From Bacteroidales bacterium (lineage in GTDB: Bacteria; Bacteroidota; Bacteroidia; Bacteroidales; JAGONC01): DNA of 41,279 nucleotides. The stretch lies in assembly GCA_028716265.1 (NCBI GenBank), contig JAQUQD010000021.1, forward strand, positions 1 through 41,279, given 5' to 3'. Each line of letters begins with the position of its first letter. Position 1 is the first letter of the stretch. A program made the translations under genes and the position numbers. The notes beneath the pieces were generated by a model. It was not told where the DNA came from. It did not search any database and worked only from the letters and a program-made list of their open reading frames with translations. Shown one piece after another: positions 5,680 to 41,064 of the stretch.

Positions 5680-5783
5680 AATCAAAAAGCAAAGAGGAAG
5701 TTACAAAGATCAAAAGTATTTATGTATTACATGAAACATACTGACTTTTGATATTTGCTTTATGCTTTTTGCTCTTTAATTTG
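5680..5783. repeat. Hairpin of degenerate 7-nt repeats between convergent genes
   Basis: The gap between the EEP nuclease and mfd stops is almost entirely repeat. The right part reads as 7-nt units TTTGATA TTTGCTT TATGCTT TTTGCTC. The left part carries the complementary theme (ATCAAAAAGC, GATCAAAAGTA), so the two sides can pair imperfectly around a central 20-25 base loop. The repeat reaches the mfd stop codon. Because the genes converge here it may act as a two-way terminator; no clean U-tract hairpin was seen. Confidence 0.65.
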
Positions 5784-26667: not shown

Positions 26668-26699
26668 GGGGGTGATGTTTGTGTAAAATTAGAAAATTT

Positions 26700-26840
26700 A
26701 TGAAGTATGTAGCATGAAAAATGAAAAATGAAAAATTATGAAGCATGTAGCATGAAATATGAAATATTTTAAATATTCATTTCAGAAGATGGTTGCATTT
26801 ATACATTATTAAATAATATTGCATGCTTCATTCTTCATCC
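26700..26840. repeat. ATGAAAA-type 7-nt repeat region
   Basis: Units such as ATGAAAA, repeated in step, and two copies of GTAGCATGAAA occupy 26708-26768. A short complementary stretch (CATGCTTCATTCTTCATCC) at 26822-26840 can pair back to GAAGCATG. It lies directly upstream of the aldehyde dehydrogenase start region. Degenerate; no coding role. Confidence 0.65.
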
Positions 26841-26992
26841 TTAATATATCTACACATGCCCTGAAGATCCTCTCCCTCTTCCTGGCGATCCTCCGGGTGG
26901 TCATAGACGGGGAGGTCTTCAGGGCCGGTTACATCTTCCGGATCGTTCTCATCCCTGGGGCGAACCGGAAATGGGGGCTGTGTCAGAAGCAC
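26828..26992 (-). CDS. Possible short acidic protein or gene remnant
   Basis: A 54-residue frame from GTG at 26992 to TGA at 26828, with a stop immediately upstream of the GTG. The product is strongly acidic with recurring PED triplets (NDPEDVTG, GPEDLPVY, HPEDRQEEGED). The stretch is clearly richer in G+C than the repeats on either side, and its codons are G-first, as in real genes. The opposite strand in the same register is also open and hydrophobic, but that is the expected mirror of an acidic frame. No homologue is recognised. It could be the surviving C-terminus of a broken gene, since a hairpin repeat starts exactly at its 5' end. Confidence 0.3.
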   Translation of the reverse strand: MLLTQPPFPVRPRDENDPEDVTGPEDLPVYDHPEDRQEEGEDLQGMCRYIKDEE

Positions 26993-27101
26993 TTAACCAC
27001 CAGGGAACGCAAAGGTCTTCTCAAAGGTACACAAAGCATCATCATTGATTATCAATTACTTGGTGTTCCTTTGAGAAGCACTTTGTGTAACTTTGTGTTA
27101 A
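26993..27101. repeat. Inverted repeat of ACACAAAG-type units
   Basis: The left side (26993-27037) and right side (27058-27101) pair imperfectly, sharing CTTCTCAAAGG exactly, and both are bounded by TTAAC/GTTAA. The right arm read on the minus strand has 9-nt spaced ACACAAAG units. It resembles the 15462-15568 element in layout but not in sequence. It lies upstream of the rplU promoter. Confidence 0.65.
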
Positions 27102-27172
27102 AAGCAGCTTGTAATACAAACTCTCGCAGCCGTAGTGATCATCTTCAATTAAAATAATATCCTTCAACAGAT

Positions 27173-27201
27173 TTGTAATTTCGATTTTTTTACTAATTTT
27201 G
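27173..27201 (+). promoter_or_regulatory. Promoter of the rplU-rpmA operon
   Basis: TTG at 27173-27175, 18 bases, then TAATTTTG at 27194-27201 matches the Bacteroidota consensus with ideal spacing. The leader to the rplU ATG is about 30 bases. Confidence 0.75.
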
Positions 27202-27239
27202 CTGCTCCATTTTTTTAGGTACCTTTAATTGGCTTACAG

Positions 27240-27740
27240 ATGTATGCAATCGTTGATATAGCAGGGCAACAGTTCAGGGTTGAACAGGGTCAGGAAGTCT
27301 TCGTCCACCGTTTACAGGGCGAAGAGGGCGCACAGGTGACCTTTGATGACGTTCTTCTGATCGATTCCGACGGAACGGTCAATGTGGGCAAACCGGTCGT
27401 GGAAGGCGCCTTCGTTTCCGCAAAGATCATGTCCCACCTGAAAGGCGACAAGGTATTGATATTCAAGAAGAAAAGAAGAAAAGGCTACCAGAAGATGACC
27501 GGTCACCGTGACCTTCTTACGCGCATCCTGATCGAAAACATTTCGCTGACGGGTGGCAGGATCAGGGAACCGGAAGTGAAAAAAGCTGTAGTGAAAGAGG
27601 AAACGATACCCGTAAGCCCTGTTGTGGAAACAACACCCGAAAACCTGACTTCGGCACAGGAAGTTACGGAAGAAGTGAAGCCGAAGCCCCGCCGGAGAGC
27701 AGTGAAAAAAGAACCGGAAGAAGGGGCGGGGGAGCAGTAG
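27240..27740 (+). CDS. rplU: 50S ribosomal protein L21 with a charged C-terminal extension
   Basis: Large-subunit ribosomal protein. Residues 1 to about 103 are the conserved L21 core (MYAIVDIAGQQFRVEQGQ, GKPVVEGAFVSAKI, FKKKRRKGYQKMTGHR). The remaining 60 or so residues are a low-complexity extension rich in Val, Glu, Pro and Lys, ending RRRAVKKEPEEGAGEQ. Such tails occur in some Bacteroidota L21 proteins. The gene leads an operon with rpmA, as in most bacteria, but the two are separated by 164 bases of G-rich 7-nt repeat rather than a short spacer. Confidence 0.96.
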   Translation: MYAIVDIAGQQFRVEQGQEVFVHRLQGEEGAQVTFDDVLLIDSDGTVNVGKPVVEGAFVSAKIMSHLKGDKVLIFKKKRRKGYQKMTGHRDLLTRILIENISLTGGRIREPEVKKAVVKEETIPVSPVVETTPENLTSAQEVTEEVKPKPRRRAVKKEPEEGAGEQ

Positions 27741-27890
27741 CCAGCGGGAGGCGGGTAGCAGGAGGCGGGAAGCGGGAAGCAGGAGGCGGGAGGCGGGAAG
27801 CAGGAGGCGGGAGGCGGGAAGCAGGAGGCGGGAAGCAGGTTTGGGATTTATTTGGAGTTTGGATCTTGGAATTTGGATTTTACCATATTT
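27741..27890 (+). repeat. GGGAGGC-type 7-nt tandem repeat in the rplU-rpmA spacer
   Basis: About 14 units of the form GGGAGGC, GGGAAGC or AGGAGGC run from just after the rplU stop to about 27838. Looser TTTGGAT-type 7-nt units (GAGTTTG GATCTTG GAATTTG) follow to about 27880. It lies inside an operon and so should be transcribed. The many GGG runs on the mRNA strand could form a G-quadruplex. No inverted arm is present. Confidence 0.85.
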
Positions 27891-27904
27891 AGATATTAGA
27901 AACC

Positions 27905-28174
27905 ATGGCACACAAAAAAGGAGTGGGAAGCTCACGCAACGGACGTGAATCCCACAGCAAACGACTGGGTGTAAAAGTTTTTGGCGGACAGTACGCGCGT
28001 GCCGGAAACATTATCGTCAGACAGAGAGGAACCAAACACAATCCAGGCCTGAATGTATCCATTGGCAAGGACCACACCCTGTTTGCCCTTGTGGACGGGA
28101 CGGTTCAATTCAGTAAAAGAAAAGACGACCGGTCGTACGTTTCCGTGATCCCCGCTGAAAAACCCCAGGAATAG
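27905..28174 (+). CDS. rpmA: 50S ribosomal protein L27
   Basis: Large-subunit protein near the peptidyl-transferase centre. The 89 residues begin [21 protein letters not shown], split in the family as the flexible N-terminal tail, followed by [21 protein letters not shown] and [21 protein letters not shown]. Full length, with no cleavable N-terminal extension. Second gene of the rplU operon, followed closely by a strong terminator. Confidence 0.97.
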
Positions 28175-28206
28175 ACACCATCGTTGTATCTATACTATGA
28201 AAAGAA

Positions 28207-28240
28207 AATCTCCTGGTGGATCATCAGGGGATTTTTTTTT
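28207..28240 (+). terminator. Rho-independent terminator after rpmA
   Basis: AATCTCCTGGTG and CATCAGGGGATT form a 12-bp stem (two G-U pairs) with a three-base loop, followed by an unbroken T run to 28240. It lies 32 bases after the rpmA stop. Confidence 0.92.
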
Positions 28241-28249
28241 GGAAATGGT

Positions 28250-28257
28250 TACTTTTG
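28250..28257 (+). promoter_or_regulatory. -7 promoter box for serS
   Basis: TACTTTTG fits TAnnTTTG and lies directly after the rpmA terminator. Transcription from it would place the whole hairpin repeat at 28266-28327 in the serS 5' leader. Confidence 0.5.
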
Positions 28258-28265
28258 CGGAGGAT

Positions 28266-28327
28266 TAGCTACAAGCTGCAAGCTGCAAGGTTGAGACTTA
28301 AGACTTGAAGCTTGAAGCTTGTAGCTA
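28266..28327 (+). repeat. AGCTACA-type 7-nt hairpin repeat in the serS leader
   Basis: The left arm AGCTACAAGCTGCAAGC and its continuation pair with a right arm of AGCTTGA-type units ending CTTGTAGCT. The stem is about 23 bp with two mismatches, closed by a 14-base loop containing GACTTAAGA. The same loop motif and unit recur at 39024-39107. It ends about 40 bases before the serS ATG. Confidence 0.85.
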
Positions 28328-28366
28328 ACCAGATTGAAATTACCATAATGAAACAAGAATCCTAAT

Positions 28367-29635
28367 ATGCTAGAACTGACCTACATCCGCGAGCACAAAC
28401 AGGACGTCATCCGGCGTCTCGGTATCAAGAATTTCAAAGCAGTCCACCTGGTGGATGAAATCGCGCAGGCGGATGCCGAACGCCGCAGGATCCAGAAATC
28501 GCTTGACGACATCCTGGCCGAATCCAACCAGGCTGCCCGCGAGATCGGGATCCTGTACAAAAGCGGCCGCGTGGATGAAGCGGGCGAGCTGAAGGCAAAG
28601 ACCGCCGAATGGAAGGTGCGGTCAAAGGAACTGGGCGAAAAGCTCTCGGAGACCGAACAGAGGCTGAACGACCTGCTGGTGCAGCTTCCCAATCTCCCCC
28701 ACCCTTCGGTGCCAAAAGGATTTTCAGCCGAGCACAACGAAAATGTCTACCAGGAAGGAAACTTCCCTCAGCTGTATCCCGGGGCGATGCCCCACTGGGA
28801 CCTGATCAGGAAATATGATATCATTGATTTTGAGCTGGGTAACAAGGTGACAGGAGCGGGATTTCCCTTTTACAAGGGCAAAGGAGCCAAACTGCAGCGG
28901 GCGCTGATCGCCTTCTTCCTGGATAGTGCCGTCAAAGCGGGATATCTTGAAGTTCAGCCTCCCCTGCTGGTGAACGCTGACTCAGGGTATGGTACAGGCC
29001 AGCTTCCGGATAAGGACGGCCAGATGTATGTCGTCACGGAGGAGAACTTCTACCTGATCCCCACAGCCGAGGTCCCCATCACCAACATTTACCGGAATGT
29101 CATCCTTACGGCCAATGATCTGCCTGTCAAGAATGTAGCCTATTCCAGCTGTTTCAGGCGAGAGGCAGGCTCCTGGGGGAAAGATGTCAGGGGACTGAAC
29201 CGCCTGCACCAATTCGATAAGGTCGAGATCGTACAGATCGTGCATCCGGAGCGTTCGTATGAAGCTCTGGAAGAAATGCGCACGCATGTGGCGGGACTCC
29301 TCCACGCCCTGGAGCTTCCCTTCCGTATCATGAAGCTGTGCGGTGGCGATCTGAGCTTCACCAGCGCACTGACCTATGATTTTGAGGTCTATTCAGCCGC
29401 TCAGGAACGGTGGCTGGAGGTCAGCTCCGTCTCCAACTTCGAATCATTCCAGTCGAACCGCATGAAACTGCGCTTCAAGGACCAGGACGGGAAAACAAAG
29501 CTGGCCCATACACTAAACGGAAGCGCCCTTGCGTTACCCAGGGTGGTGGCTGCCTTGCTGGAAAATAACCAGACGGCCGACGGGATTAAGGTGCCGGAGG
29601 TTTTGGCAGAGTATACGAGGTTTGACATGATTTGA
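28367..29635 (+). CDS. serS: Seryl-tRNA synthetase
   Basis: Charges tRNA-Ser. The 422-residue class II synthetase has the N-terminal antiparallel coiled-coil arm (about 30-100), the opening MLELTYIREHKQDVIRRL, TAEVPITN, motif 2 FRREAGSWGKDVRGLNR (about 262) with the ATP-binding Arg, and motif 3 NGSALALPRVVAALLEN (about 383). Full length. A 7-nt hairpin repeat sits in its presumed 5' leader between a TACTTTTG box and the ATG. A TPR protein gene follows after about 50 bases on the same strand. Confidence 0.97.
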   Translation: MLELTYIREHKQDVIRRLGIKNFKAVHLVDEIAQADAERRRIQKSLDDILAESNQAAREIGILYKSGRVDEAGELKAKTAEWKVRSKELGEKLSETEQRLNDLLVQLPNLPHPSVPKGFSAEHNENVYQEGNFPQLYPGAMPHWDLIRKYDIIDFELGNKVTGAGFPFYKGKGAKLQRALIAFFLDSAVKAGYLEVQPPLLVNADSGYGTGQLPDKDGQMYVVTEENFYLIPTAEVPITNIYRNVILTANDLPVKNVAYSSCFRREAGSWGKDVRGLNRLHQFDKVEIVQIVHPERSYEALEEMRTHVAGLLHALELPFRIMKLCGGDLSFTSALTYDFEVYSAAQERWLEVSSVSNFESFQSNRMKLRFKDQDGKTKLAHTLNGSALALPRVVAALLENNQTADGIKVPEVLAEYTRFDMI

Positions 29636-29661
29636 GAGGAGAGAGGAGAAAGGAGAGATAG
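29633..29661 (+). repeat. GAGAGGA-type 7-nt tandem repeat
   Basis: Four consecutive units, GAGAGGA GAGAGGA GAAAGGA GAGATAG, begin at the serS stop codon and fill the short gap before the TPR protein. It is purine-only on the coding strand, so it could also offer Shine-Dalgarno-like sequence, though it lies about 30 bases from the start. Confidence 0.6.
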
Positions 29662-29687
29662 TACTAATAATATTAAAGCGAGTGAGG

Positions 29688-31580
29688 ATGCGGTGGGTGT
29701 CATATGCAATGGTTTTTCTGATGTTGCTGGGGATGATTTCTCCTGCAGGAATGGTTTTCTCGCAGAAGCCGGACACGACGCGTATTGTTAGCAGAAAACC
29801 GGCCGCTGTGCGACCGGGAAGCGCCAGCAACGAATCCAAGCTGGCTGCTGAATATTATTCCAAACAGCAATTTGACAAAGCGGCCGTATTATACGAGAAG
29901 CTTTACAAGGAAAATCCCTCGTATGTCAATTATACGTATTATTATTTCTGTCTGATCCAACTCAACAGGTTTGACGAAGCGGAGAAACTGGTTAAAAAAC
30001 AGATAAAGGCTTTTCCCGAAAAAGCGCGATACCAGGTCGACCTCGGTTACATCTACCAGATGTCGGATGAATCCGGCAAGGCAAAAAAAGAGTACGAAAA
30101 TGCCATCCTTAAACTAACCGCTGACCGCAACGCCATTATGGAACTTGCCGGTGCCTTTCAGTCGCGCAGGGAGAATGAATATGCCATCCGTACCTATTAC
30201 AGGGGAAGGGAATTGATGGGCCCTTCGGAATCATTCAACCTGGAGATCGGTTCCATTTATGAATCCGAGGGCAAATATGAAGAGATGTACAACGAGTACC
30301 TGAACCTGATCGAGGCTGAACCGTCGATGATCCAGAACGTTCAGACCAGGATTCAGAATACCCTCTCGGAAGATCCGGACGGGACCAAAAGTGATCTCTT
30401 AAGGATCGCCCTGCTCAAACGGATCCAGACATTCCCGGATAAGGTCCTTTACTCGGAGATGATGATCTGGTACTCCTTGCAGCAGAAAGATTTCAAAACG
30501 GCCCTGATACAGGCCAAAGCCCTCGACCGAAGATTCAGCGAGCAAGGCGAGCGAGTATTCGAGCTCGGGATGCTGAGTGCATCCAATGAGGATTATGATG
30601 CTGCATCCGATGCCTTCAGCTACGTCATCAACAAAGGAGAATCAGCTGAGTTGTACCTTTCAGCAAGGATCGAATTGCTCAATGTCATGTTCATGAAAAG
30701 TACCTCAGAGTACGTAACGGACAAAGCGGCATTGATGGATCTGGAACAACAGTTTCGGCAGCTTCTGGATGAACTGGGCCATAACAGAACTACCCTGTCC
30801 CTGATGCGGAACATGGCTCATCTGCAGGCCTTTTACCTCAATAAGCAGCAGGATGCCGTTGCATTGCTGGAGGAGGCCAGGCAGATCAAAACGCTCATGC
30901 CGCAGGAACGTGCCGGGATCAAAATGGAACTGGCCGATATCTTACTGTTCAGTGGCGAACCCTGGGAAGCCACCCTGCTGTACTCCCAGGTGGAAAAAGA
31001 ATTCAAACATGAGCCAATCGGACACGAGGCAAAATTCCGTAACGCACGACTTTCCTATTACATCGGCGAGTTCCGGTGGGCAAAGGCCCAGCTCGATATT
31101 CTGAAAGCAGCTACCTCAAAGCTCATTGCAAACGATGCCATGGAACTGTCGCTCCTGATCCTTGATAACATGGATCCTGACAGTACGTATACCGCCCTTG
31201 GACAGTACGCCAGGGCCGATTTTTACCTATTCCGGAATAATGATGAACAGGCCATGGTGTTACTTGATTCCATTCAGCGATCATATCCCGGTCATCCTCT
31301 GGCAGATGAGATCCTTTACAAGAAAGCGCAGATCGCACTCAGAAAGGGCAAATTTCAGGAAGCGGACACCCTCCTCGGGGAGGTGACCGGTCTTTACCCC
31401 TGGGATATCCTAGCCGACAATGCCCTGATGATGCGGGCCAGACTGCATGAAGAACAGCTCAGTGATCCGTCAGTGGCCATGGAACTCTATCAGCGCCTCA
31501 TGACCGACTATCCCGGCAGCCTTTTCGTGGTGGAAGCCCGGAAACGATTCAGGGAGCTGAGGGGGGATGTGGTGAATTAG
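29688..31580 (+). CDS. Secreted or periplasmic TPR repeat protein
   Basis: About 630 residues. The frame opens at GTG 29682, but the ATG at 29688 gives a cleaner signal peptide (MRWVSYAMVFLMLLG to FSQ). The mature part is almost wholly alpha-helical tetratricopeptide-like repeats, for example AAEYYSKQQFDKAAVLYEKL near residue 45, then YVNYTYYYFCLIQLNRFDEAEKL, and repeats near the C-terminus such as LYQRLMTDYPGSLFVVEARKR. The last type resembles YbgF/BamD-like outer-membrane-associated TPRs. No catalytic motif. It is a likely protein-protein scaffold in the envelope, with partner unknown. It follows serS and precedes the repeat upstream of rsmA. Confidence 0.85.
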   Translation: MRWVSYAMVFLMLLGMISPAGMVFSQKPDTTRIVSRKPAAVRPGSASNESKLAAEYYSKQQFDKAAVLYEKLYKENPSYVNYTYYYFCLIQLNRFDEAEKLVKKQIKAFPEKARYQVDLGYIYQMSDESGKAKKEYENAILKLTADRNAIMELAGAFQSRRENEYAIRTYYRGRELMGPSESFNLEIGSIYESEGKYEEMYNEYLNLIEAEPSMIQNVQTRIQNTLSEDPDGTKSDLLRIALLKRIQTFPDKVLYSEMMIWYSLQQKDFKTALIQAKALDRRFSEQGERVFELGMLSASNEDYDAASDAFSYVINKGESAELYLSARIELLNVMFMKSTSEYVTDKAALMDLEQQFRQLLDELGHNRTTLSLMRNMAHLQAFYLNKQQDAVALLEEARQIKTLMPQERAGIKMELADILLFSGEPWEATLLYSQVEKEFKHEPIGHEAKFRNARLSYYIGEFRWAKAQLDILKAATSKLIANDAMELSLLILDNMDPDSTYTALGQYARADFYLFRNNDEQAMVLLDSIQRSYPGHPLADEILYKKAQIALRKGKFQEADTLLGEVTGLYPWDILADNALMMRARLHEEQLSDPSVAMELYQRLMTDYPGSLFVVEARKRFRELRGDVVN

Positions 31581-31591
31581 TTGGCAGCCTG

Positions 31592-31617
31592 TCCTGATGA
31601 GTGAAACGAAATCAGGA
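31592..31617 (+). other. Small hairpin with hammerhead-like core strings
   Basis: TCCTGAT and ATCAGGA form a 7-bp stem around a 12-base loop. The sequence contains CTGATGAG and CGAAA five bases apart, the order seen in a hammerhead ribozyme core with a tiny stem II. I could not find a cleavage-site strand with matching stem I and III sequence, so a plain hairpin at the end of the TPR gene is the safer reading. Confidence 0.3.
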
Positions 31618-31746
31618 TCAACAGTCAGCAGTCAACAGTCAACAGTCAACAGTCAGCAGGCAACAGGCAATAACTGGCAGTTGGGAGTTGCAGTTGACGG
31701 TTAGCGGAGAAAGATATGCGAAAATCGACAATCGACAATCGGCAAT
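31617..31746 (+). repeat. CAGTCAA-type 7-nt repeat upstream of rsmA
   Basis: Seven or so units alternating CAACAGT and CAGCAGT occupy 31619-31672. A looser complementary arm (CAGTTGGGAGTTGCAGTTGAC) runs at 31677-31699, and a second run of CGACAAT-type 7-nt units lies at 31727-31746. The rsmA frame happens to stay open through it, giving a false glutamine-serine-rich N-terminus. The same unit recurs at 40168-40223. Confidence 0.85.
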
Positions 31747-31750
31747 CATC

Positions 31751-32518
31751 ATGAGCGTCAGGCCGAAAAAGCATCTGGGCCAGCACTTTCTGGTCGACGA
31801 AAACATCGCCCGCAAGATCGTTGGTAGTCTTTCGCCCGGCACCAGCCAGGTGCTGGAGGTCGGTCCCGGAAGGGGTGTGCTGACCAGGTACCTTATACCT
31901 CTTTTCCCATCCCTTCAGATCGTGGAAATAGATGAGGAGTCAGTCCGGTACCTGAAAGAGACCTTCCCGCAGATCAGCAAACAGATCATTCATGGTGATT
32001 TTCTTAAAACCGACCTGAGCGGATTATTTACAGAATCCTTTGCCATCATTGGCAATTTTCCCTACAATATTTCTTCGCAGATCCTTTTTCATATTATCGA
32101 ACACAGGGAGCAGGTGACAGAAGTAGTGGGCATGTTCCAGAAGGAGGTGGCTGAGCGCATAGCGTCACCCCCGGGATCAAAGAAGTACGGTATCCTCAGC
32201 ATCCTGACTGGTGCTTTTTACGATATTGAGTATCTGTTTTCCGTCAACGAAACGGTCTTTTATCCTCACCCGAAAGTGAAATCTGCGGTGATCCGCATGA
32301 CCAGGAATAAGACGGTACGACTGGAATGCGATGAGGCGTTCTTTTTCAAGGTAGTGAAAACAGCATTCAATCAACGAAGAAAAACGCTGCGTAATGCGCT
32401 GAGGAGTCTTTCCAATGAAAAGGCAGCTTCGGATCCTGTTTTCTCCCTTCGCGCAGAACAGCTCAGCATACAGGATTTCATCCGACTGACAAATCTTTTG
32501 GAACCGGCATTTTATTAA
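31751..32518 (+). CDS. rsmA: 16S rRNA (adenine-N6,N6)-dimethyltransferase
   Basis: Dimethylates two adjacent adenines in the 3' hairpin of 16S rRNA during small-subunit maturation. The ATG at 31751 gives 255 residues starting MSVRPKKHLGQHFLVDENIA, the family's normal N-terminus. The 50 upstream in-frame residues are repeat sequence and are excluded. The SAM-binding motif LEVGPGRGVLT is at about 34-45 and the catalytic NFPYNISS at about 101. The C-terminal helical domain ends in a normal position. The stop codon overlaps the -7 box of the next gene. Confidence 0.96.
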   Translation: MSVRPKKHLGQHFLVDENIARKIVGSLSPGTSQVLEVGPGRGVLTRYLIPLFPSLQIVEIDEESVRYLKETFPQISKQIIHGDFLKTDLSGLFTESFAIIGNFPYNISSQILFHIIEHREQVTEVVGMFQKEVAERIASPPGSKKYGILSILTGAFYDIEYLFSVNETVFYPHPKVKSAVIRMTRNKTVRLECDEAFFFKVVKTAFNQRRKTLRNALRSLSNEKAASDPVFSLRAEQLSIQDFIRLTNLLEPAFY

Positions 32519-32523
32519 ATTTG
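32516..32523 (+). promoter_or_regulatory. -7 promoter box overlapping the rsmA stop
   Basis: TAAATTTG uses the rsmA stop codon as its first three bases. A TTG lies 15 bases upstream, slightly short of usual spacing. It would drive the downstream glycosyltransferase-like gene from a start about ten bases ahead of its ATG. Confidence 0.5.
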
Positions 32524-32540
32524 CCGGCAAATTGAAACCG

Positions 32541-34547: not shown

Positions 34548-34553
34548 GGGAAG

Positions 34554-36257
34554 ATGAAAGCTGGCATTTATAATAGAAGAACGGTTCCTGACCTGCTATT
34601 ATCCGTTGTAGAGTCATTTCCGGATAAAGGAATTGGTTTTGTTCAATCCGAAGGTAATATGAAGTTCCTGACCTATAAGGAACTTTTATCAGAGGCAAAG
34701 GAAATTTTAGGGGGTCTGCAATCCAGAGGTTTGACACAGAAAGACAAGGTGATGATCGTCATGTCAAGGAATGAGGATATTGTACCTGTGCTCTGGGCTT
34801 GTTTTTTGGGAGGAATGGTACCCACCATCCTTCAACCTCCTGTATCGTTTACGGAATTCAATCAGCCTGCCCGGAAAATTGAGAATGTTTACCGTATACT
34901 CCAACATCCCAGGATAATCTTATCGGCGGATTTGATGAACAGTTTCAAATCGGAAGTGATATCCACACAGGATATTCTTGATGCAGGAAATCTTAAGAAT
35001 CAAAACAGGGAGGCATTTTTGACTAACATCCTGGAAACTGATATTGCTTTCATTCAATTCTCATCAGGAAGTACAGGAGATCCAAAAGGGATCGTATTGA
35101 CTCATAAAAACATACTCACCAATATTGCAGCTATTTGCGTTGGGCTGGATGTATATGATAACGATGTGTATTCAAGCTGGATGCCTATATACCATGACAT
35201 GGGTTTATTTGGGTACCATTTCTGCCCCCTGTTCGCACAGAATAATCATTATCTCATTGATCCGGTAAATTTTGTAAAAAAGCCATCGTTGTGGCTTGAC
35301 GTCATGGAAGAAGTGAAATGCACCATCACCGGATGTCCGAATTTTGGGCAGGCATTGCTTTTAAGATATTTAAAAAACCGAGAAAGCAAAAAATGGGACC
35401 TTTCTTCGTTAAAAGCAATAGTTAACGGAGCAGAACCAATATCTCCCAGGATCATGTATGATTTCCTGAATAGTCTATCGGATCACAAATTGAAAAAAGA
35501 ATCAATGATACCTGCATATGGTATGGCTGAATCCACGCTGGCAATTACACTTTCCGAATTATTTAAGGTTCCGGTAACCACTCCATTCAACAGAACGATA
35601 CTACAAAAACAAGGGAAAGCTGTCGTGGAGAAAAATGTTGTTTCAGAGGTGATAGAGTTAGTGAGTGTCGGAAAGCCGCTCAATGATGTCGAGATCAGGG
35701 TCGTAAGTGAAAAGGGGGATCCTTTGGCAGACAATCTTGAAGGACAGATCCAGATAAAAGGAGCAGGAATTACATCCGGATATTATAATAATCCTGAAGA
35801 AACACATCGTTCATTCAACAATACATGGTTCAATACAGGTGATAAAGGATTTATTTTCAATGGAAATCTGTATGTCACAGGCAGGATAAAAGATATCATC
35901 TTTGTCCGTGGTCAGAATCTTTACGCCCACGATCTGGAAAGTCTGGCCTGTAAATACTCAGGAATCACGTATGGTAAAATAATAATGGGTGGATTGTTTG
36001 ACTCCAGGAAAGGGTATGACCAGATCCTTGTATTCCTTGTAGGATCACCAAACCAGGAGACCTGCCAGACTTTTACCCAGCTGCGTAATTTTTTTCGGGA
36101 CACTTACGGATTAACCATTGATATTTTCATTCCCATCCGCTCAAATCAGGTCCCCAAGACAAGCAGTGGTAAGATCCAGCGTTATAAGCTGATTTCCAGT
36201 TATCAGAACGGGGAGTTTGACAATGTGATCGCCGATGTGGCGAAGCTGATGAAGTAA
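34554..36257 (+). CDS. Fatty-acyl-AMP ligase (stand-alone)
   Basis: A 567-residue adenylate-forming enzyme that activates a carboxylic acid as acyl-AMP for transfer to an acyl carrier protein. Visible motifs: A3 loop FSSGSTGDPKGIVLTH (about 167-182), SWMPIYHDMGLFGY (FAAL-type, about 207), NGAEPISPRIM, AYGMAESTLA, TGDKGFI, GRIKDIIFVRGQNLYAHDLE and A10 SSGKIQRYK with the catalytic Lys (about 541). YHDMGL and YAHDLE favour the FAAL branch over acyl-CoA synthetases. The gene looks more AT-rich than its neighbours, suggesting a separate origin. It starts six bases after the GT-C gene and ends before a repeat-rich gap leading to a free acyl carrier protein. Confidence 0.88.
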   Translation: MKAGIYNRRTVPDLLLSVVESFPDKGIGFVQSEGNMKFLTYKELLSEAKEILGGLQSRGLTQKDKVMIVMSRNEDIVPVLWACFLGGMVPTILQPPVSFTEFNQPARKIENVYRILQHPRIILSADLMNSFKSEVISTQDILDAGNLKNQNREAFLTNILETDIAFIQFSSGSTGDPKGIVLTHKNILTNIAAICVGLDVYDNDVYSSWMPIYHDMGLFGYHFCPLFAQNNHYLIDPVNFVKKPSLWLDVMEEVKCTITGCPNFGQALLLRYLKNRESKKWDLSSLKAIVNGAEPISPRIMYDFLNSLSDHKLKKESMIPAYGMAESTLAITLSELFKVPVTTPFNRTILQKQGKAVVEKNVVSEVIELVSVGKPLNDVEIRVVSEKGDPLADNLEGQIQIKGAGITSGYYNNPEETHRSFNNTWFNTGDKGFIFNGNLYVTGRIKDIIFVRGQNLYAHDLESLACKYSGITYGKIIMGGLFDSRKGYDQILVFLVGSPNQETCQTFTQLRNFFRDTYGLTIDIFIPIRSNQVPKTSSGKIQRYKLISSYQNGEFDNVIADVAKLMK

Positions 36258-36470
36258 TAGTACCCACCCCCTCGATCCCCCTCTATGCCCGCATAGGGGT
36301 GGTTAAAAGAAACAGAAGTTGCTGAGGAAGAGTCGGATGTAGACAATTGTAACTTTTAGTACCCACCCCCTCGTTCCCCCTCCCTTCGAAAAGGGAGGAG
36401 GAAGAACACTCTCCCCTTCCCCCTCCCTGCGGGCAGGGAGGGGGAAGGGGGGTGGGTAAAAAATGAATCC
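36258..36470. repeat. C/G-rich hairpin repeats between FAAL and ACP genes
   Basis: Two near-identical 26-base direct repeats containing TAGTACCCACCCCCTCG start at 36258 and 36357. Hairpins follow each: CTCTATGC/GCATAG-type around 36281, CTCCCTT/AAGGGAG around 36380-36397, and a perfect 18-bp stem at 36413-36430 with 36433-36450. The outer arms ACCCACCCC and GGGGTGGGT also pair. It may terminate the upstream ligase transcript; there is no open frame in the gap. Confidence 0.85.
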
Positions 36471-36522
36471 ACAGGGCAGGAGAATGAGTAAAAGAAAATC
36501 ATTCTCACAACCGGAAAAATCC

Positions 36523-36530
36523 TACCTTTG
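36523..36530 (+). promoter_or_regulatory. -7 promoter box for the acyl carrier protein
   Basis: TACCTTTG followed by CATCC is a classic Bacteroidota -7 region, 20 bases before the ACP ATG. Confidence 0.6.
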
Positions 36531-36550
36531 CATCCCTAAATCATCATTCC

Positions 36551-36787
36551 ATGACCGTTAATGAATTTATCGAGAAGATCGAAGCTGAATTCGAGGACCT
36601 GGAACCCGGTAAATTAAAGCCTGCCAGCAATTTCCGCGAAGTATTCGAGTGGAACTCCATCAACGCCCTTATCCTGATCGCCCTGGTCAAGACGGAATAC
36701 GACGTGGTGATCAAAGCGGAAGATATAGCCAGATCTAAGACTGTTAATGATCTCTATACGATCATCGAGCAAAGGGTTACTTCATAA
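36551..36787 (+). CDS. Acyl carrier protein
   Basis: A 78-residue acidic four-helix carrier. The phosphopantetheine attachment Ser is in FEWNSINALILIALV (about residue 37), where the usual DSL is replaced by NSI, as seen in dedicated, non-housekeeping carriers. Helix III and the C-terminus (VIKAEDIARSKTVNDLYTII) are typical. It is flanked by a stand-alone acyl-AMP ligase upstream and a ligase-ACP fusion downstream on the other strand, so it most likely carries the acyl chain activated by one of these and used by the nearby FabH-like ketosynthase. It is unlikely to be the main fatty-acid-synthesis ACP. Confidence 0.9.
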   Translation: MTVNEFIEKIEAEFEDLEPGKLKPASNFREVFEWNSINALILIALVKTEYDVVIKAEDIARSKTVNDLYTIIEQRVTS

Positions 36788-36912
36788 ATCCCAACTTCCA
36801 ACTTCCAAATTCCAAACAAATTACAAAACACAAATTCCAATGCTTTTATCGGAAGAGGCTTGGAATTTGAAATTTGGGATTTGTTTGGGGTTTTGATTTT
36901 GGAAGTTGGAAG
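36788..36912. repeat. Long CTTCCAA-type 7-nt hairpin between convergent genes
   Basis: The 125-base gap between the ACP stop and the ligase-ACP stop is one hairpin. The left arm begins with CTTCCAA CTTCCAA ATTCCAA units. The right arm ends with the complement (TTGGAAG TTGGAAG). The arms are about 50 bases each, with the outer 16 bases perfectly matched and a loop of about 20 bases at 36840-36860. Its position suggests a two-way terminator. Confidence 0.85.
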
Positions 36913-38949
36913 TTATTGCCCCAATCTGCTGGCTCTCTCAGCCAACTCACCAATGGTTATTTTCTCGAAAAAAAGGTACGGTGGGAAATTGATCCCGTAT
37001 CTCTGAAGAAAGGCATTCTGAAGCTGTACAGCTTTCATTGAGTTCAGGCCATAAGCCGTGATGGGTCTGGAGGAATCGATTAGTTCGATGGGCACCTTCA
37101 GCTGGCTGTGGATCCAGGCAAGTAGCCACGCCTGCAGGGAGACCAGATCCGACGACGACGCAACAGCTTCCCTTTCCCGTGTTGTTTCTTTGAGAACAGA
37201 TTCACCCACCACGTCCAGTTCATTTCGGAGAAAAGCTGCTTTGCATGCCCTGCGCTGGATCTTGCCGCTGGAGGTCTTCAGGATGCTGGCGGTGCGAAGC
37301 AGCTGAACGGCGTACACCTCCTGCTCCAGTTCCTCCCCCACCTGCTGACGGATAGCATCACATACCGCCGCGACATCCAGGTCGCGGATGGCGGTCCGTT
37401 CCACCTCCGCTACGATGACCAGTCTCTCTTCCCCGTCCAGGTCGACAGAGAAAGCAGCGCTCGCATTGGGCCTTAGTGCCGGATGACTTTTCTCGGCAAG
37501 GAATTCGATGTCCTGAGGATAATAATTCCTGCCCTTTAAAATGATCAGATCCTTCAGCCTTCCTGTAACATATAACTCCCCTTCGTAAAAGAAACCCAGG
37601 TCACCTGTCCGGAGAAAAGGCCCTTCCCTGGTATCGCGTGTGTAAGCATGAAAGGTTTCTTTGGTCTCCCTGGATTTATTCCAGTATCCCTTCGTGATGA
37701 TTGACCCTGAAACCCATATTTCACCAACTTCTGAAGATTTACTGTGTGTCAGCGTTTCCGGATCGACAATGATGATATGGGTGTCGATCCAGGGTTTTCC
37801 GACAGATACCTGGTAACTGGAGCCCGGAGCATCCTCCCGTGTGATTTCAATCCTTCCCTTTTCAAGAGCCTGCTTATCGACACACAAATACCGCGGTTTG
37901 TCCGTTATGTTACCTCCTGAAACGATCAATGTAGCTTCTGCCAGTCCATATCCCGGATAGAAGTTCTCCGGCTGAAATCCGTAGGGCTCAAATCGTTCGA
38001 TGAACTGCTCCATGGTGGCCTTTCGTACCGGCTCAGCCGCATTTAAGATCGCCTTGACCGTACTCAGGTCAAGATTCATGCAATCTTCTTCCGATATTTT
38101 CGATATACAGAGATCAAAAGCAAAATTAGGAGCACTTCCCATCACTCCATGGTAATCAGAAAAAGCCCTCAGCCAGCGGATGGGTTTTTGAATGAACGAA
38201 ACCGGCGACATCAGGATACCGGTACATCCGCTGTAAACAGGCTGAATGATGCCAATGACCAGCCCCATGTCATGAAAAACGGGTAACCAGTGGACAGCAT
38301 TTGTTTCAGCGGTGAATTCGAAACATTGCCTCAGGAATTCAAGGTTCCGCATGAAATTCCCATGGCTGACCATGACACCTTTCGGACTGGCTGTTGAACC
38401 CGAAGTGTATTGCAGTAAAGCCAGATCATCCGGCGCTATCGTATAACTGAAATCTTCGCTGACGGAAGATTCCCTGTCAACAGATATCCAGAGCAGGGAC
38501 CTGAGTTCCTCCACATCGCGAAAGTTCTTCTCAAAGGATTCCCGGATATCGCTTATGGTGATGCATAGCTTCGGATCGCAATCATTGACGATTGAAATGA
38601 TCCTGCTGAAAGAACGGTTTTTACGTGGCGGATAGGCCGGGACAGCATAAATGGCAGCATAAAAACAGCCGAACAGAGTTTTTACAAACTCCAGTCCCGG
38701 AGGGAAAAGCAACAGGGCCCGCTCACCCGGTGAAATCCCGCGGTTCCTGATGGTGTGCGCTATCCTCCAGGCCTGTTCGTACAATTGCCTGTATGTGATC
38801 TTTTCCTCCTCCGTTTCTCCATCTTTTAAGAAAATAAAAGCAACCTTATCCGGGGTTCGCTCCGCCCTGAATTTGAGAATATCGCAAATGGTATATAGGT
38901 AGGTATCTTCCTCTGTGATCGTTCCATGTAAAAAATTCTCCAGTCCCAT
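36913..38949 (-). CDS. Fatty-acyl-AMP ligase fused to an acyl carrier domain
   Basis: A 678-residue two-domain protein. Residues 1 to about 575 form an FAAL: AYPPRKNRSFSRI (about 110-122), A3 loop YTSGSTASPKGVMVSHG (about 180), HWLPVFHDMGLVIGIIQP (the FAAL hallmark), NAAEPVRKATM, GYGLAEATLIVSGG, TGDLGFF, GRLKDLIILKGRNYYPQDIE and A10 TSSGKIQRRA with the catalytic Lys (about 560). Residues about 595-678 form an ACP domain with the pantetheine Ser in AYGLNSMKAVQLQ (about 635). The enzyme can therefore activate an acid and load it on its own carrier. It is divergent from the KS III gene, sharing a promoter region, and convergent with the free ACP gene. Architecture matches starter modules of lipopeptide/polyketide systems, but no NRPS or PKS module is in view. 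Confidence 0.92.
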   Translation of the reverse strand: MGLENFLHGTITEEDTYLYTICDILKFRAERTPDKVAFIFLKDGETEEEKITYRQLYEQAWRIAHTIRNRGISPGERALLLFPPGLEFVKTLFGCFYAAIYAVPAYPPRKNRSFSRIISIVNDCDPKLCITISDIRESFEKNFRDVEELRSLLWISVDRESSVSEDFSYTIAPDDLALLQYTSGSTASPKGVMVSHGNFMRNLEFLRQCFEFTAETNAVHWLPVFHDMGLVIGIIQPVYSGCTGILMSPVSFIQKPIRWLRAFSDYHGVMGSAPNFAFDLCISKISEEDCMNLDLSTVKAILNAAEPVRKATMEQFIERFEPYGFQPENFYPGYGLAEATLIVSGGNITDKPRYLCVDKQALEKGRIEITREDAPGSSYQVSVGKPWIDTHIIIVDPETLTHSKSSEVGEIWVSGSIITKGYWNKSRETKETFHAYTRDTREGPFLRTGDLGFFYEGELYVTGRLKDLIILKGRNYYPQDIEFLAEKSHPALRPNASAAFSVDLDGEERLVIVAEVERTAIRDLDVAAVCDAIRQQVGEELEQEVYAVQLLRTASILKTSSGKIQRRACKAAFLRNELDVVGESVLKETTREREAVASSSDLVSLQAWLLAWIHSQLKVPIELIDSSRPITAYGLNSMKAVQLQNAFLQRYGINFPPYLFFEKITIGELAERASRLGQ

Positions 38950-38975
38950 AGCTATTTCCTTTAATTTGACCGTTG

Positions 38976-38983
38976 CAAAATTA
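38976..38983 (-). promoter_or_regulatory. -7 promoter box for the ligase-ACP fusion
   Basis: TAATTTTG on the minus strand, 26 bases before the ATG at 38949. It is one half of a divergent promoter pair with the box at 39015-39022. Confidence 0.55.
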
Positions 38984-38995
38984 GGAAATCATGAG

Positions 38996-39022
38996 TTGGG
39001 AACGGAAAATGGGTTAAATTTG
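38996..39022 (+). promoter_or_regulatory. Promoter of the FabH-like ketosynthase
   Basis: TTG at 38996-38998, 16 bases, then TAAATTTG at 39015-39022. The 7-nt hairpin repeat begins two bases after the box, so the 5' leader would consist almost wholly of the repeat. Confidence 0.55.
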
Positions 39023-39023
39023 T

Positions 39024-39107
39024 GAGCTGCAAGCTACAAGCTGCAAGCTACAAGCTGCAAGCTTCAAGCTTAAGACTTGAAACTTGTAGCTTGAAACTTG
39101 AAGCTAA
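39024..39107 (+). repeat. AGCTACA-type 7-nt hairpin repeat in the ketosynthase leader
   Basis: The left arm alternates AGCTGCA and AGCTACA (five or six units). The right arm is ACTTGAA/GCTTGAA/CTTGTAG-type complement. The loop has CTTAAGACTTGAA, the same core as the serS-leader element at 28266-28327. The stem is about 30 bp with G-U pairs and mismatches, ending ten bases before the ATG. Confidence 0.85.
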
Positions 39108-39117
39108 AAAGAAACAC

Positions 39118-40227
39118 ATGGCTCTCTTCCGCATCCCCAACATCCGCATCGCCGGCATGGCAGCCGCCGTTCCGGTGAGCGAGGTCTCCAACCTGGATTA
39201 CCGATGGATCTCCGTCAAAGAACGTCAGCAGGTAGTTAAGGCCATCGGGGTGGAGAAGCGGCGTATCGCAGAAAAAGGCCAGACTACGGCTGACCTGTGT
39301 TTTGCAGCGGCCGACAGGCTCCTGGGCGATCTTCAGTGGAACCGGAATGAAATTCAGGCCATCATTTTCGTTTCTCAGTCGATGGATTACATCATTCCTG
39401 CCACTGCACCCATCTTACAGAACCGTTTATCATTACCCAAAACATGCCTGGCATTCGATATCAACCTGGGCTGCTCAGGATATATCTATGGTCTGTCGGT
39501 CATTGGCAGTCTGATGAGCCAGTCACGGATGAAGAAGGCTCTTCTTTTAGCCGGAGATCTTTCCAGTATAACTTCATCATACCGTGATAAAAGCACATAT
39601 CCTCTGTTTGGAGATGCTGGCACGGTAACAGCTCTGGAATTGACCGAAACGGCAGAACCGATGATCTTTAACCTCCAGACGGATGGGGCAGGCTATCGTG
39701 CCATCATGATCCAGGATGGGGGGGTTCGCAACTGGGTTAGCAAAAAATCATTTAATTACCGTAAATACGGAGAAGGCATCTACCGGAATAATCTTCAGAT
39801 TTCCCTGGATGGGATAGAAGTATTTAATTTTTCCCTCCGGGAGGTAGTACCCAACATCAAAGCCACTCTGGAGTATGCCGGGAAAACATTGAACGATTTC
39901 GATTATCTGGTCTTTCACCAGGCGAACCGGCTGATCAATGAAACGATCCGTAAAATGCTAAAAGCCGAGAAAGAGAAGGTCCCCTACTCAATCCATAAAT
40001 ACGGGAACACCAGCAGCGCCTCCGTACCCCTGACCATTGTTTCCGAATTGCAGGAAAACATCCGGAATGAGCATGTCAAATTCCTGCTTTCAGCATTCGG
40101 CATCGGATTATCCTGGGGCACGGTGCTGCTTGAGACGAATAGGGTGGTGTGTCCGGGAGTGATTCAAGTCGGCAGTCAGCAGTCAGCAGTCAGCAGTCAA
40201 CAGTCAACAGTCAGCAGTCAACAATAG
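39118..40227 (+). CDS. FabH-like 3-oxoacyl-ACP synthase III
   Basis: A 369-residue condensing enzyme of the KS III family, which joins an acyl starter to malonyl-ACP with loss of CO2. The catalytic triad is visible: Cys in INLGCSGYIYG (about 119), His in LVFHQANR (about 266) and Asn in YGNTSSASV (about 296). The start at 39118 (MALFRIPNIRIAG) is chosen because the upstream 32 in-frame codons are repeat DNA. The last 18 or so residues (from VGSQQS) are also repeat-encoded and replace the normal C-terminus. The real family end is LSWGTVLLE. It is divergent from the ligase-ACP fusion and followed by an SDR, so it is probably a dedicated rather than a housekeeping FabH. Confidence 0.9.
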   Translation: MALFRIPNIRIAGMAAAVPVSEVSNLDYRWISVKERQQVVKAIGVEKRRIAEKGQTTADLCFAAADRLLGDLQWNRNEIQAIIFVSQSMDYIIPATAPILQNRLSLPKTCLAFDINLGCSGYIYGLSVIGSLMSQSRMKKALLLAGDLSSITSSYRDKSTYPLFGDAGTVTALELTETAEPMIFNLQTDGAGYRAIMIQDGGVRNWVSKKSFNYRKYGEGIYRNNLQISLDGIEVFNFSLREVVPNIKATLEYAGKTLNDFDYLVFHQANRLINETIRKMLKAEKEKVPYSIHKYGNTSSASVPLTIVSELQENIRNEHVKFLLSAFGIGLSWGTVLLETNRVVCPGVIQVGSQQSAVSSQQSTVSSQQ

Positions 40228-40268
40228 AACAATTTGACAGTTTAACAATTTAACAATTTGGCAATTGA
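40168..40268 (+). repeat. CAGTCAA-type 7-nt repeat changing to AACAATTT 8-nt repeat
   Basis: Eight units of CAGCAGT/CAACAGT run from 40168 to 40223 and include the ketosynthase stop codon. Without a break the DNA continues as five 8-nt units AACAATTT GACAGTTT AACAATTT AACAATTT GGCAATTG to about 40266. The element ends seven bases before the SDR start. The first half is the same family as 31617-31746. Confidence 0.85.
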
Positions 40269-40275
40269 CTAACGT

Positions 40276-41010
40276 ATGAACGCCTTCGACCTCACCGGAA
40301 AACGAATCCTTGTCACCGGCGCCTCCTCCGGTCTGGGACGGCAATGTGCGATCACTGCCAGCCATTACGGGGCAACGCTTGTCATTACCGGTCGCCATCA
40401 GGGAAGATTGATGGAAACCTTTAATGAGCTGTCAGGCACAGGCCACCAGTGGTTGCTGGCCGATCTCACAAAGGATTCAGAAATTTTACGCCTGGTCGGT
40501 GATCTTCAACCGGTCAACGGAGTAGTCTATAGCGTTGGGATATCTGATCTCTCACCCGCCCGGTTCATTACCGGGGCAGATATAAATAAAACCTTCACTG
40601 TCAGCTTTAATACTTCCGTTCTGCTCACCAGCAGCCTGCTGACGAAGAAAAAACTTGTGCAGAAAGCCTGTTCGCTCGTTTTTATCTCTACGATATCCAC
40701 AAGATACCCCTTTGTAGGCGGAGCCATGTATATCAGTGCCAAAGCAGCGCTGGAAGCCTATGCACGCGTACTGGCTCTTGAGCTGGCATCCAAGGGGATA
40801 CGGTCCAACAGTATCTGCCCGGCCTTTGTAAAAACACCCATGCTCGACAGCACCGCCGAAAATTATTCCCAGGAAGCTGTCCGGAAAATAGAAGAAAGAC
40901 AACCCCTGGGACTGGGCGAACCTGAAGACGTGGCCAATGCGGTGGTGTTCTTTCTTTCAGACGCTTCACGGTGGATTACCGCTACCAACCTCATCCTGGG
41001 CGGCGGATAA
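40276..41010 (+). CDS. SDR-family oxidoreductase (FabG-like)
   Basis: A 244-residue classical short-chain dehydrogenase/reductase. The cofactor motif TGASSGLGRQ is at about 13-22, and TGRHQGRL, with a basic residue after the second strand, suggests NADPH. The catalytic residues are Ser in FISTIS (about 138) and the Tyr and Lys of YISAK (about 151-155). The C-terminal FLSDASRWITATNLILGGG is typical of 3-oxoacyl-ACP reductases. It follows the KS III gene with only a repeat between. The inferred role is reduction of the 3-oxoacyl chain made by the ketosynthase to a 3-hydroxyacyl group. A sugar-modifying role cannot be excluded. Confidence 0.88.
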   Translation: MNAFDLTGKRILVTGASSGLGRQCAITASHYGATLVITGRHQGRLMETFNELSGTGHQWLLADLTKDSEILRLVGDLQPVNGVVYSVGISDLSPARFITGADINKTFTVSFNTSVLLTSSLLTKKKLVQKACSLVFISTISTRYPFVGGAMYISAKAALEAYARVLALELASKGIRSNSICPAFVKTPMLDSTAENYSQEAVRKIEERQPLGLGEPEDVANAVVFFLSDASRWITATNLILGGG

Positions 41011-41033
41011 GGATATCTGATGAATGATATTTA

Positions 41034-41064
41034 ATCTTTGATCTTTGATTTTTGATTTTTGAAA
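41034..41064 (+). repeat. ATTTTTG-type 7-nt tandem repeat upstream of GT2
   Basis: Four exact-register units ATCTTTG ATCTTTG ATTTTTG ATTTTTG, ending eight bases before the glycosyltransferase ATG. It occupies most of the short gap after the SDR stop. Confidence 0.75.

Follow-up and report, generated by a model that had tools for sequence, protein, structure and literature searches.

Heptamer arrays in the intergenic DNA of a Bacteroidales bacterium and their possible origin as arms of hairpin elements carrying 23S_rRNA_IVP genes

Introduction

In the intervening sequences (IVS) of 23S rRNA genes, an open reading frame (ORF) of the S23p/IVP family lies in the loop of a stem formed by terminal inverted repeats, and the elements have a scattered distribution, according to the sections of PMC4990558 used here. 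Here, we relate genes of this family (PF05635, 23S_rRNA_IVP; hereafter ‘IVP genes’) to tandem arrays, mostly of 7-nt units, that fill many gaps between genes in a stretch of 41,279 nucleotides from a Bacteroidales bacterium (GenBank assembly GCA_028716265.1, contig JAQUQD010000021.1, forward strand). This stretch, at its full length, is called the window; it is contig C21 of the source genome (G000), a 3.09 Mb draft of 166 contigs whose gene content points to Bacteroidota.

Heptamers have been described before. An excess of them in bacteria, and the idea that it stems from slippage during replication, in steps that reflect the footprint of the polymerase, are ascribed to Mrazek 2007 in the relevant sections of MacGregor 2015 (PMC4679880) and Rehm 2015 (PMC4692102); an earlier note on the window, made from its letters alone, was therefore too strong in finding no described mechanism for repeats of this kind. 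The same sections state that some Bacteroidetes gaps hold several heptamers where relatives have short, repeat-free gaps (MacGregor 2015), that Xanthomonas heptamers often form convergent inverted pairs (70 cases in Xanthomonas campestris pv. campestris, Xcc), and that heptamers were generally found to have no link to mobile elements (Rehm 2015). Neither contains, in those sections, any mention of four-helix proteins, nor of S23 (PMC4679880) or 23S (PMC4692102), and the open-access full-text literature searched yielded no link between IVP genes and arrays.

Our reading, held with moderate confidence, is that the window arrays derive from hairpin elements dispersed through intergenic DNA, whose full form carries an IVP gene; the arrays would be arms of such elements or solo remnants of arms. 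Comparisons were made with four relatives from the same family (G001–G004) and with an order set of 60 genomes that includes G000–G004. The assemblies are mostly drafts, of which about one quarter (G000) and one third (G001) was read. The names rplU, rpmA, serS and most other gene names were assigned by eye, the exceptions being RrnaAD and aldehyde dehydrogenase.

IVP genes between inverted arrays

In the AMP-ACP gap of G001, a DUF559 gene lies within CCC-rich hairpins that stand alone in G000; therefore, small genes were sought in hairpin loops. Matches to PF05635 above cut-off number 9, 9, 13, 13, and 10 in G000–G004, respectively, and none occurs in 14 control genomes. The family is present in 44 of the 60 genomes of the order and in nine of 12 array-bearing genomes hand-picked from exact matches to four CAGTCAR units. 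TIGR02436 also matched above cut-off in six of six IVP proteins, with 2gsc and 2rld as solved relatives.

We read 85 IVP loci, mostly top-scoring ones: 30 of 54 from the own family, 25 of about 190 from the order (one per genome), and 30 of 53 from other phyla. The order relatives were not picked for repeats, the other-phylum genomes were picked because of CAGTCAR, and the phylum of distant genomes was taken from record titles. Flanks were scored at 83 loci (L227 and L304, with short flanks, were excluded) and at 80 control genes with a gap of at least 100 nt on each side, the cut-offs being above 12 for complementarity and at least 12 for arrays. Left and right flanks are complementary at 63 of the 83 IVP loci versus seven of the 80 controls (Fisher p 2.8e-19), and one of those seven controls is a Y1 transposase gene. 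By set, the counts are 21/29 in the own family, 19/24 in order relatives, and 23/30 in other phyla. Arrays reach the cut-off at 63/83 IVP loci versus 32/80 controls, and the period of those 63 is 7 in 44, 8 in 16, 10 in two, and 6 in one.

This layout, an IVP gene with an inverted array, is found in Bacteroidota and, per record titles, in Cyanobacteria, Chloroflexi, Nitrospirae, Acidobacteria, and Chlorobiota. The arms are diverse (e.g. CAGTCGG in G004, AGCTGCA in G000, GGGCATG in Tychonema and Microcoleus and, in genomes so titled, TTTAGGA in Acidobacteria, GTGCGATA in Chloroflexi, and GCGTTATA in Nitrospira). None of the 20 loci scanned with Rfam, out of the 85, had an rRNA match.

The motif GGGTMACAA stands within 150 nt 5' of nine of the 30 own-family IVP genes (11 occurrences on both strands in 819,948 bases of G000). 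As a conserved core it was rejected, being found at 0/25 order and 0/30 other-phylum IVP genes. By eye, it was also noticed ahead of one Y1 gene and of some PDDEXK_3 genes.

Arm sharing, copies lacking the ORF, and empty sites

IVP loci that occupy different sites were compared two by two, with one duplicated pair and 19 same-site pairs excluded; flanks are shared by 5/7 pairs with protein identity of at least 75%, 7/31 at 60–75%, 2/86 at 50–60%, and 29/3426 below. One sharing pair, at 67% identity, crosses phyla: L280, of an Acidobacteria genome, and L310, of the order relative G039. So the arms travel with the IVP gene for a time and then diverge.

The arms also recur away from IVP genes. 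With own loci kept (cases that include the own locus have at least 30 places), arm arrays matching at least three places in the samples of G000 and G001 were found for 10/14 IVPs of G000–G002, 4/10 of G003–G004, 2/22 of order relatives, and 3/24 of other phyla; the three from other phyla are CAGTCAA-like, the family for which those genomes were picked. The difference between G000–G002 (10/14) and the order and other phyla together (5/46) has a p of 2.7e-5. Copies lacking an ORF share their ends with an IVP-bearing copy in the same genus.

Several sites are occupied in one genome and empty in another. The IVP locus L229 of G002 takes up 669 nt in place of 8 nt in G001 and, measured against G000, 613 nt in place of 42. 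The IVPs of L226, L233, and L234 fill 489–513 nt, the same gap measuring 57–58 nt in G004. G001 lacks the IVP that G000 has at L217, and its flanks are 165 nt apart there. In one tRNA-side gap, G000, G002, and G004 carry IVP genes whose arms differ, and G001 carries a CAACCGT array but no IVP gene.

Repeat arrays across the genome

Period spectra were taken from 600,000 bases of G000 that were not picked for repeats (30 of 40 stretches, the other ten having been picked for them), with chance levels from order-2 Markov copies of gap DNA. Intergenic identity at lag 7 is 0.295, versus 0.260–0.287 for all remaining lags between 2 and 30. Under an ORF mask of at least 90 codons, by which some true gaps are counted as coding, gaps have 19 lag-7 arrays and masked DNA has 10, versus 0.0 in the Markov copies. 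Also above chance are lag 8 (11 in gaps, one masked), lag 10 (seven in gaps, none masked), and some longer lags (e.g. lag 16, six arrays). Coding DNA showed no rise of lag-7 identity in the G000 sample that included the ten stretches picked for repeats. The genome-wide presence of the heptamer arrays, beyond chance, is thus confirmed, as is a 7-nt excess in intergenic DNA; 7 is the main period but not the sole one, being accompanied by 8 and 10.

An assembly artefact was rejected as an explanation: exact arrays occur in records titled as complete or nearly so (Microcoleus vaginatus HSN003, Calothrix brevissima NIES-22), and likewise inside contigs of G001 longer than 450 kb. Exact matches to four CAGTCAR units were found in Microcoleus, Tychonema, Nostoc, Calothrix, and others, among the matches listed, which bears out the kinship with cyanobacterial heptamers that had been suggested.

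The vocabulary of units is limited. Those of 7 nt listed in G000 are CAGTCAR, GGCAGTT, AGGTTGC, AGCTTCA/AGCTACA, GAGAGGA, TTTGATY, ATGAAAA, TTGGAAT, TTTGCTC, and GGGAGGC; longer ones are the 8-nt AACAATTT and AAGGCACA and a 10-nt unit like AATAACTATA. An 18-nt CAGTCAR pattern, searched with at most one mismatch and with overlapping matches counted, has 49+70 matches in the G000 genome; the control, the same pattern reversed, has none there and 2, 2, 1, and 27 in the relatives G002, G050, G053, and G026. G026, an order relative, has 22+5 reversed and no forward matches, another unit of equal composition being in use there. When 13.8 kb of the window was compared with four relatives, dozens of dispersed matches were obtained, to gap sequences alone and several of them composite; the composite of CAGTCAR followed by AACAATTT, as at 40167–40266, was found again elsewhere. 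The units are therefore not wholly unrelated, as the earlier note had them: a limited set recurs at many loci, and within the window itself two units, AGCTGCA and CAGTCAR, are found in two gaps apiece.

Array features of the window

The features are given below with coordinates in the window, strand, and, where arms were compared, matches to the flanks of IVP loci and to 265 control ORFs. ‘TRF’ marks listing by Tandem Repeats Finder, which reports arrays of period 7 at all the places named earlier except 5741–5783, where only a weak one was seen.

5741–5783, no strand: TTTGCTT/TTTATGC array, period 7, weak; score 9 at 5756–5777; not TRF-listed
26699–26768, plus strand: ATGAAAA array, period 7 inside 31/38, possible left arm; TRF 26714–26736
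About 26820–26840: candidate partner TGCATGCTTCATTCTTCATCC of the ATGAAAA array; fold z -0.37, a hairpin not beyond shuffles
26993–27105, plus strand: CTTAACCACCAGGGAACGCAAAGG / CTTTGTGTTAA hairpin, ends by eye; style as around PDDEXK_3 genes and IVP locus L217
27743–27833, plus strand: GGGAGGC/GGGAAGC array in the rplU-rpmA gap; TRF as 14/21; matches flanks of L220 and L223, controls 0/265
27851–27881, plus strand: TTTGGAT array; TRF; matches L239, controls 7/265
28262–28328, plus strand: AGCTACA/AGCTGCA hairpin before serS, both arms 7-nt arrays; TRF 28267–28289; z -7.59; matches L223, controls 1/265
29634–29658, plus strand: GAGAGGA array after serS, one-sided; TRF
31592–31617, plus strand: inner hairpin TCCTGAT..ATCAGGA with loop GAGTGAAACGA; near copy in another gap of G001
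31618–31700, plus strand: CAACAGT array with inverted partner before the RrnaAD (rsmA-like) gene; TRF as TCAACAG 31618–31670; z -3.07 for 31580–31715; matches L219, L228, and L238, controls 9/265
31715–31750, plus strand: CGACAAT array; TRF 31719–31747; no IVP arm match, controls 0/265
36359–36459, plus strand: CCCTCCC / GGGAGGG hairpin lacking an ORF; a like hairpin in the same gap of G001 has the DUF559 gene
36786–36914, plus strand: CCAACTT/TTGGAAT long hairpin, both arms 7-nt arrays; TRF as CCAACTT/AAATTCC 36786–36816; z -9.10; dispersed copies; matches L239, controls 9/265
39025–39105, plus strand: AGCTGCA hairpin element of 81 nt, AGCT at both ends; TRF 39025–39070; z -3.47; matches L223, controls 1/265
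40167–40220, plus strand: CAGTCAR array; TRF as AGTCAGC; matches L219, L228, and L238, controls 8/265
40220–40266, plus strand: AACAATTT array, period 8, directly after the CAGTCAR array; TRF; matches L226, L233, and L234, controls 15/265
41025–41062, plus strand: TTTGATC/TTTGATT array, one-sided; TRF as TGATCTT

Eight of 13 window arrays match at least one flank among the 30 own-family IVP loci; control genes are matched as well, because arrays are common. None of the nine IVP genes listed for G000 lies inside the window. When nine window arrays were folded, four went beyond shuffles (z -3.07 to -9.10) and five did not, so that the fold-back proposed for several arrays is supported in part. 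Rfam gave no match at the gathering threshold in the window, and its sub-threshold matches to microRNA families at hairpins were taken as chance.

Some side observations concern these features. The hairpin TCCTGATGAGTGAAACGAAATCAGGA (31592–31617) is nearly identical in two different gaps of two species, that of G001 being rpmA-serS. It contains letters like those of a hammerhead ribozyme core, for which Rfam gave no match at the gathering threshold or among the sub-threshold matches; CAACAGT, the unit of the array beside it, is also that of STRR3, a member of the cyanobacterial short tandemly repeated repetitive (STRR) sequences. An identical 33-nt TTTGATC array stands at positions 60–92 of L002, at the start of contig C2, and at 41030–41062 of the window, near the end of C21; this is either a contig overlap or a recent copy. 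A CGCCTCC heptamer array (25603–25626) lies inside the aldehyde dehydrogenase gene (25249–26667).

The same gaps in sister species

Eleven gaps of G000 were compared with those of sister species, a comparison that the earlier note had recommended; presence, family, and length of the arrays all vary. The 81-nt AGCTGCA hairpin is missing from the same gap of G001 and G002. In the FabH-SDR gap, that of the CAGTCAR array, G001 shows 15 plain nucleotides, and an array is present in G000, G002, and G004. In the rplU-rpmA and rpmA-serS gaps, the families differ among G000, G001, and G002, a TTTGGAT stretch in the former being common to G000 and G001. One family each is kept across G000, G001, and G002 in the serS-TPR, SDR-GT, and ACP-AMP2 gaps; that of serS-TPR is GAGAGGA, with differing array length, and G004 has a 5-nt gap there. 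The TTTGATC family at 41025–41062 is also present in G001 and G002. These differences look like insertion of finished hairpins, favoured gaps, and later drift.

A further observation was made by eye in the ACP-AMP2 gap (36786–36914 compared with L158). The central part of this hairpin runs in G002 opposite to its orientation in G001, as would result from a flip of the loop through the inverted arms.

Tracking across genomes

Across the 60 genomes of the order, the median number of IVP genes is 10 in the 13 genomes with CAGTCAR and 2 in the 47 without (p 3e-6); with the own family excluded, it is 11 (eight genomes) versus 2 (47 genomes; p 6e-4). Sixteen genomes are free of IVP genes. Ten of these were sampled with two stretches each, and the eight readable ones, at 307,708 bases, had two arrays of period 6 and none with a period from 7 to 12. 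For comparison, period-7 arrays number 29 in the 600,000 bases of G000 and 85 in 1,094,751 bases of G001.

A polymerase, reverse transcriptase, or nuclease whose presence follows the repeats had also been proposed as something to look for. Reverse transcriptase was rejected as such a tracker: RVT_1 numbers 0–1 per genome in G000–G004 and follows CAGTCAR only weakly (rho 0.32). The counts that do track the arrays are those of IVP and Y1 genes.

Other small genes in hairpins

DUF559 (PF04480) genes (L311–L320, and in the G001 AMP-ACP gap) lie between GC-rich CCCTTCCCC / GGGGAAGGGG hairpins, and complementarity exceeds 12 in seven of the nine loci with both flanks, out of 10 loci. PDDEXK_3 (PF13366) genes (L247–L252) lie between arms of the AACCACGGAGAGCACGGAGG style, with complementarity above 12 in five of six loci (six out of nine loci examined). 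The style of hairpin appears to be particular to each small gene family. As a common agent of the heptamers, both families were rejected, their hairpins being of other styles (CCCTTCCCC and AACCACGGAGAGCACGGAGG, respectively); we regard them as parallel cases.

Discussion

The reading of the arrays as arms of IVP hairpins draws on several findings: the structure was seen at most IVP genes examined and in several phyla, close relatives share arms, arms recur with no ORF in the same genus, some sites are empty, one gap has differently armed IVP genes in three species, and the sampled IVP-free relatives have no such arrays. The position of the IVP gene inside the hairpins is stronger evidence than tracking, which alone cannot name the agent because the IVP-free genomes sampled are mostly Y1-free too and one further IVP-free genome has a CAGTCAR match.

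Several results weigh against this reading. Y1 transposases also track the arrays: their median is 4 with CAGTCAR and 2 without (p 1e-4, 60 genomes), their counts correlate with CAGTCAR (rho 0.47) and with IVP counts (rho 0.66), and they are lacking from seven of the ten IVP-free genomes sampled and five of the eight readable ones. RVT_1 (median 1 versus 0, p 0.003) and genome size (p 0.006) differ as well, both tracking weakly. The IVP-free relative G011, which was not among the ten sampled, has one CAGTCAR match with one mismatch. Three of the 12 genomes with exact matches to four CAGTCAR units have no IVP match (L106 Brachyspira, L104 Legionella, L093 Verrucomicrobiales), and the L093 contig carries a second heptamer family. 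At the level of loci, 20 of the 83 IVP genes lack complementary flanks above 12, and an inverted partner within 250 nt was found for only 18/48 array clusters in G000 and 28/117 in G001. Five of the 13 window arrays (those starting at 5741, 26699, 29634, 31715, and 41025) match none of the 30 own-family IVP flanks, and the window arrays match 9/30 IVP loci versus 37/265 controls, an only moderate excess (p 0.03). No clear target duplication was seen at the empty sites, which are few and were judged by eye. Lastly, movement of the elements is something we infer and have not observed.

Four other explanations were weighed. The arrays could arise in place by other means, with IVP genes as hitchhikers that land in ready hairpin loops, as 23S IVS do in rRNA loops. 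CAGTCAR matches alone far outnumber IVP genes, as this would lead one to expect, the arms of IVPs below 60% protein identity are almost always unrelated, and the tRNA-side gap holds differently armed IVP genes in three genomes, the pair from G000 and G002 not being among the pairs of at least 45% identity. We nevertheless regard hitchhiking as unlikely: arms are often common to closely related IVP genes that occupy different sites, in one case across phyla (L280/L310), and the sampled IVP-free genomes are without arrays.

Replication slippage, with a step of about 7 nt set by the polymerase footprint, could instead make all of the arrays, the shared units being due to chance or hitchhiking. 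Heptamers are reported to be the commonest long simple repeats in many bacteria, in the sections of the literature cited above; the GAGAGGA array varies in length among G000, G001, and G002 within one gap; and the Brachyspira and Legionella loci, in genomes with no IVP match, have pure arrays of one unit. One unit occurring at many loci, with none for the reversed control, is harder to reconcile with slippage, as are the repeated order of CAGTCAR then AACAATTT, the inverted second arms, the clean presence or absence, and the periods of 8 and 10. As the whole cause, slippage seems improbable to us; some action of it on the arms is probable, but by itself it does not explain them.

That the hairpins are a form of repetitive extragenic palindromic (REP) element moved by Y1 transposases, like those of the REP-associated tyrosine transposase (RAYT) kind, would fit the tracking of CAGTCAR and IVP counts by Y1 counts, and is very improbable in view of the two readable Y1 genes (both in G001), which are flanked by other palindromes, of the CCCTACGGGG kind and the GGCCTCC..GGAGGCC kind. 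Least credible is that the arrays are binding sites of a translational or other regulator under selection, as proposed for TAACTGA in Beggiatoaceae (PMC4679880): several window arrays do directly precede a start codon, yet the same gaps hold different families or none in sister species, and one array lies inside the aldehyde dehydrogenase gene.

Proposed element

If the arrays are indeed arms of IVP hairpins, a full element would consist of an array arm, a short core, a 23S_rRNA_IVP ORF encoding a four-helix bundle, a second short core, and the array inverted. Elements with the ORF would be few and copies with the same arms and no ORF many. They would enter certain gaps as whole units, with the IVP protein perhaps assisting movement. 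The arms may then lengthen and shorten by whole units (mostly 7 nt, also 8 and 10) through slippage, a step with which the polymerase-footprint idea is compatible as the consulted parts of PMC4679880 and PMC4692102 give it, and their complementarity could be kept by arm-to-arm copying when the strand folds back. The unit sequence would drift while the period stays, the ORF being conserved and the arm sequence not, and one-sided arrays may be broken elements left by deletion.

The common cause that the earlier note saw behind many sequences is supported by these results. Its corollary, that a mobile element is unlikely, is not, because the families are dispersed, the hairpins are present or absent as units, and the full form has an IVP gene.

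As a tentative extension, which we offer with less confidence, such hairpins may constitute a phylum-spanning mobile class in which the IVP gene is conserved and the ends have no fixed sequence, being arrays built in steps of about 7 nt by the life cycle of the element and kept complementary; the known heptamers of cyanobacteria, Bacteroidota, Xanthomonas, and others would be its arms and remains. Heptamer repeats have so far been described genome by genome and with no agreed cause, and IVP hairpins offer a testable agent; the link would explain how one period goes with many sequences. Genes annotated as ‘four helix bundle protein’ would gain a structural context, and the link is relevant to how a mobile element might retain its form as its end sequences change.

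Comparison with known systems

Avd of diversity-generating retroelements is a distant relative of IVP (NF033474, E 1.9e-6 to 5.1e-10 in four of six proteins, below cut-off). Miniature inverted-repeat transposable elements (MITEs) and REP-RAYT systems resemble the hairpins in having few ORF-bearing and many ORF-less copies with common inverted ends. They differ in that the ends here are tandem arrays lacking conserved sequence and the loop has no known transposase; in addition, unlike in REP-RAYT systems, arrays do not flank Y1 genes, as judged from the two readable Y1 loci. At the few empty sites inspected by eye, no clear target duplication was seen.

With published heptamer repeats (cyanobacterial STRR, Nostoc GGGGA(C/T)T, Xanthomonas GGGAATC, Beggiatoaceae TAACTGA, and those of Geobacter), as portrayed in the parts of the literature used here, the window arrays share their dispersed and mainly intergenic occurrence. 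Each of those papers deals with one unit, whereas more than ten units occur here, their periods are 7, 8, and 10, and the full form carries an IVP gene.

The 23S rRNA IVS resemble the hairpins in their scattered distribution and in that an S23p/IVP-family ORF is likewise enclosed by complementary ends (63/83 loci here). In contrast to IVS, the IVP hairpins are intergenic, number several per genome, and have no rRNA match (0/20 loci), and their arms are short-period arrays that differ by copy. Because all 20 scanned loci lack an rRNA match, the IVP hairpin is not a strict member of the IVS. The hairpins are best described as resembling IVS but lying outside rRNA and having short-period arrays for stems. 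The single parts of this picture are already known; in combination they were not met with in the open-access literature searched.

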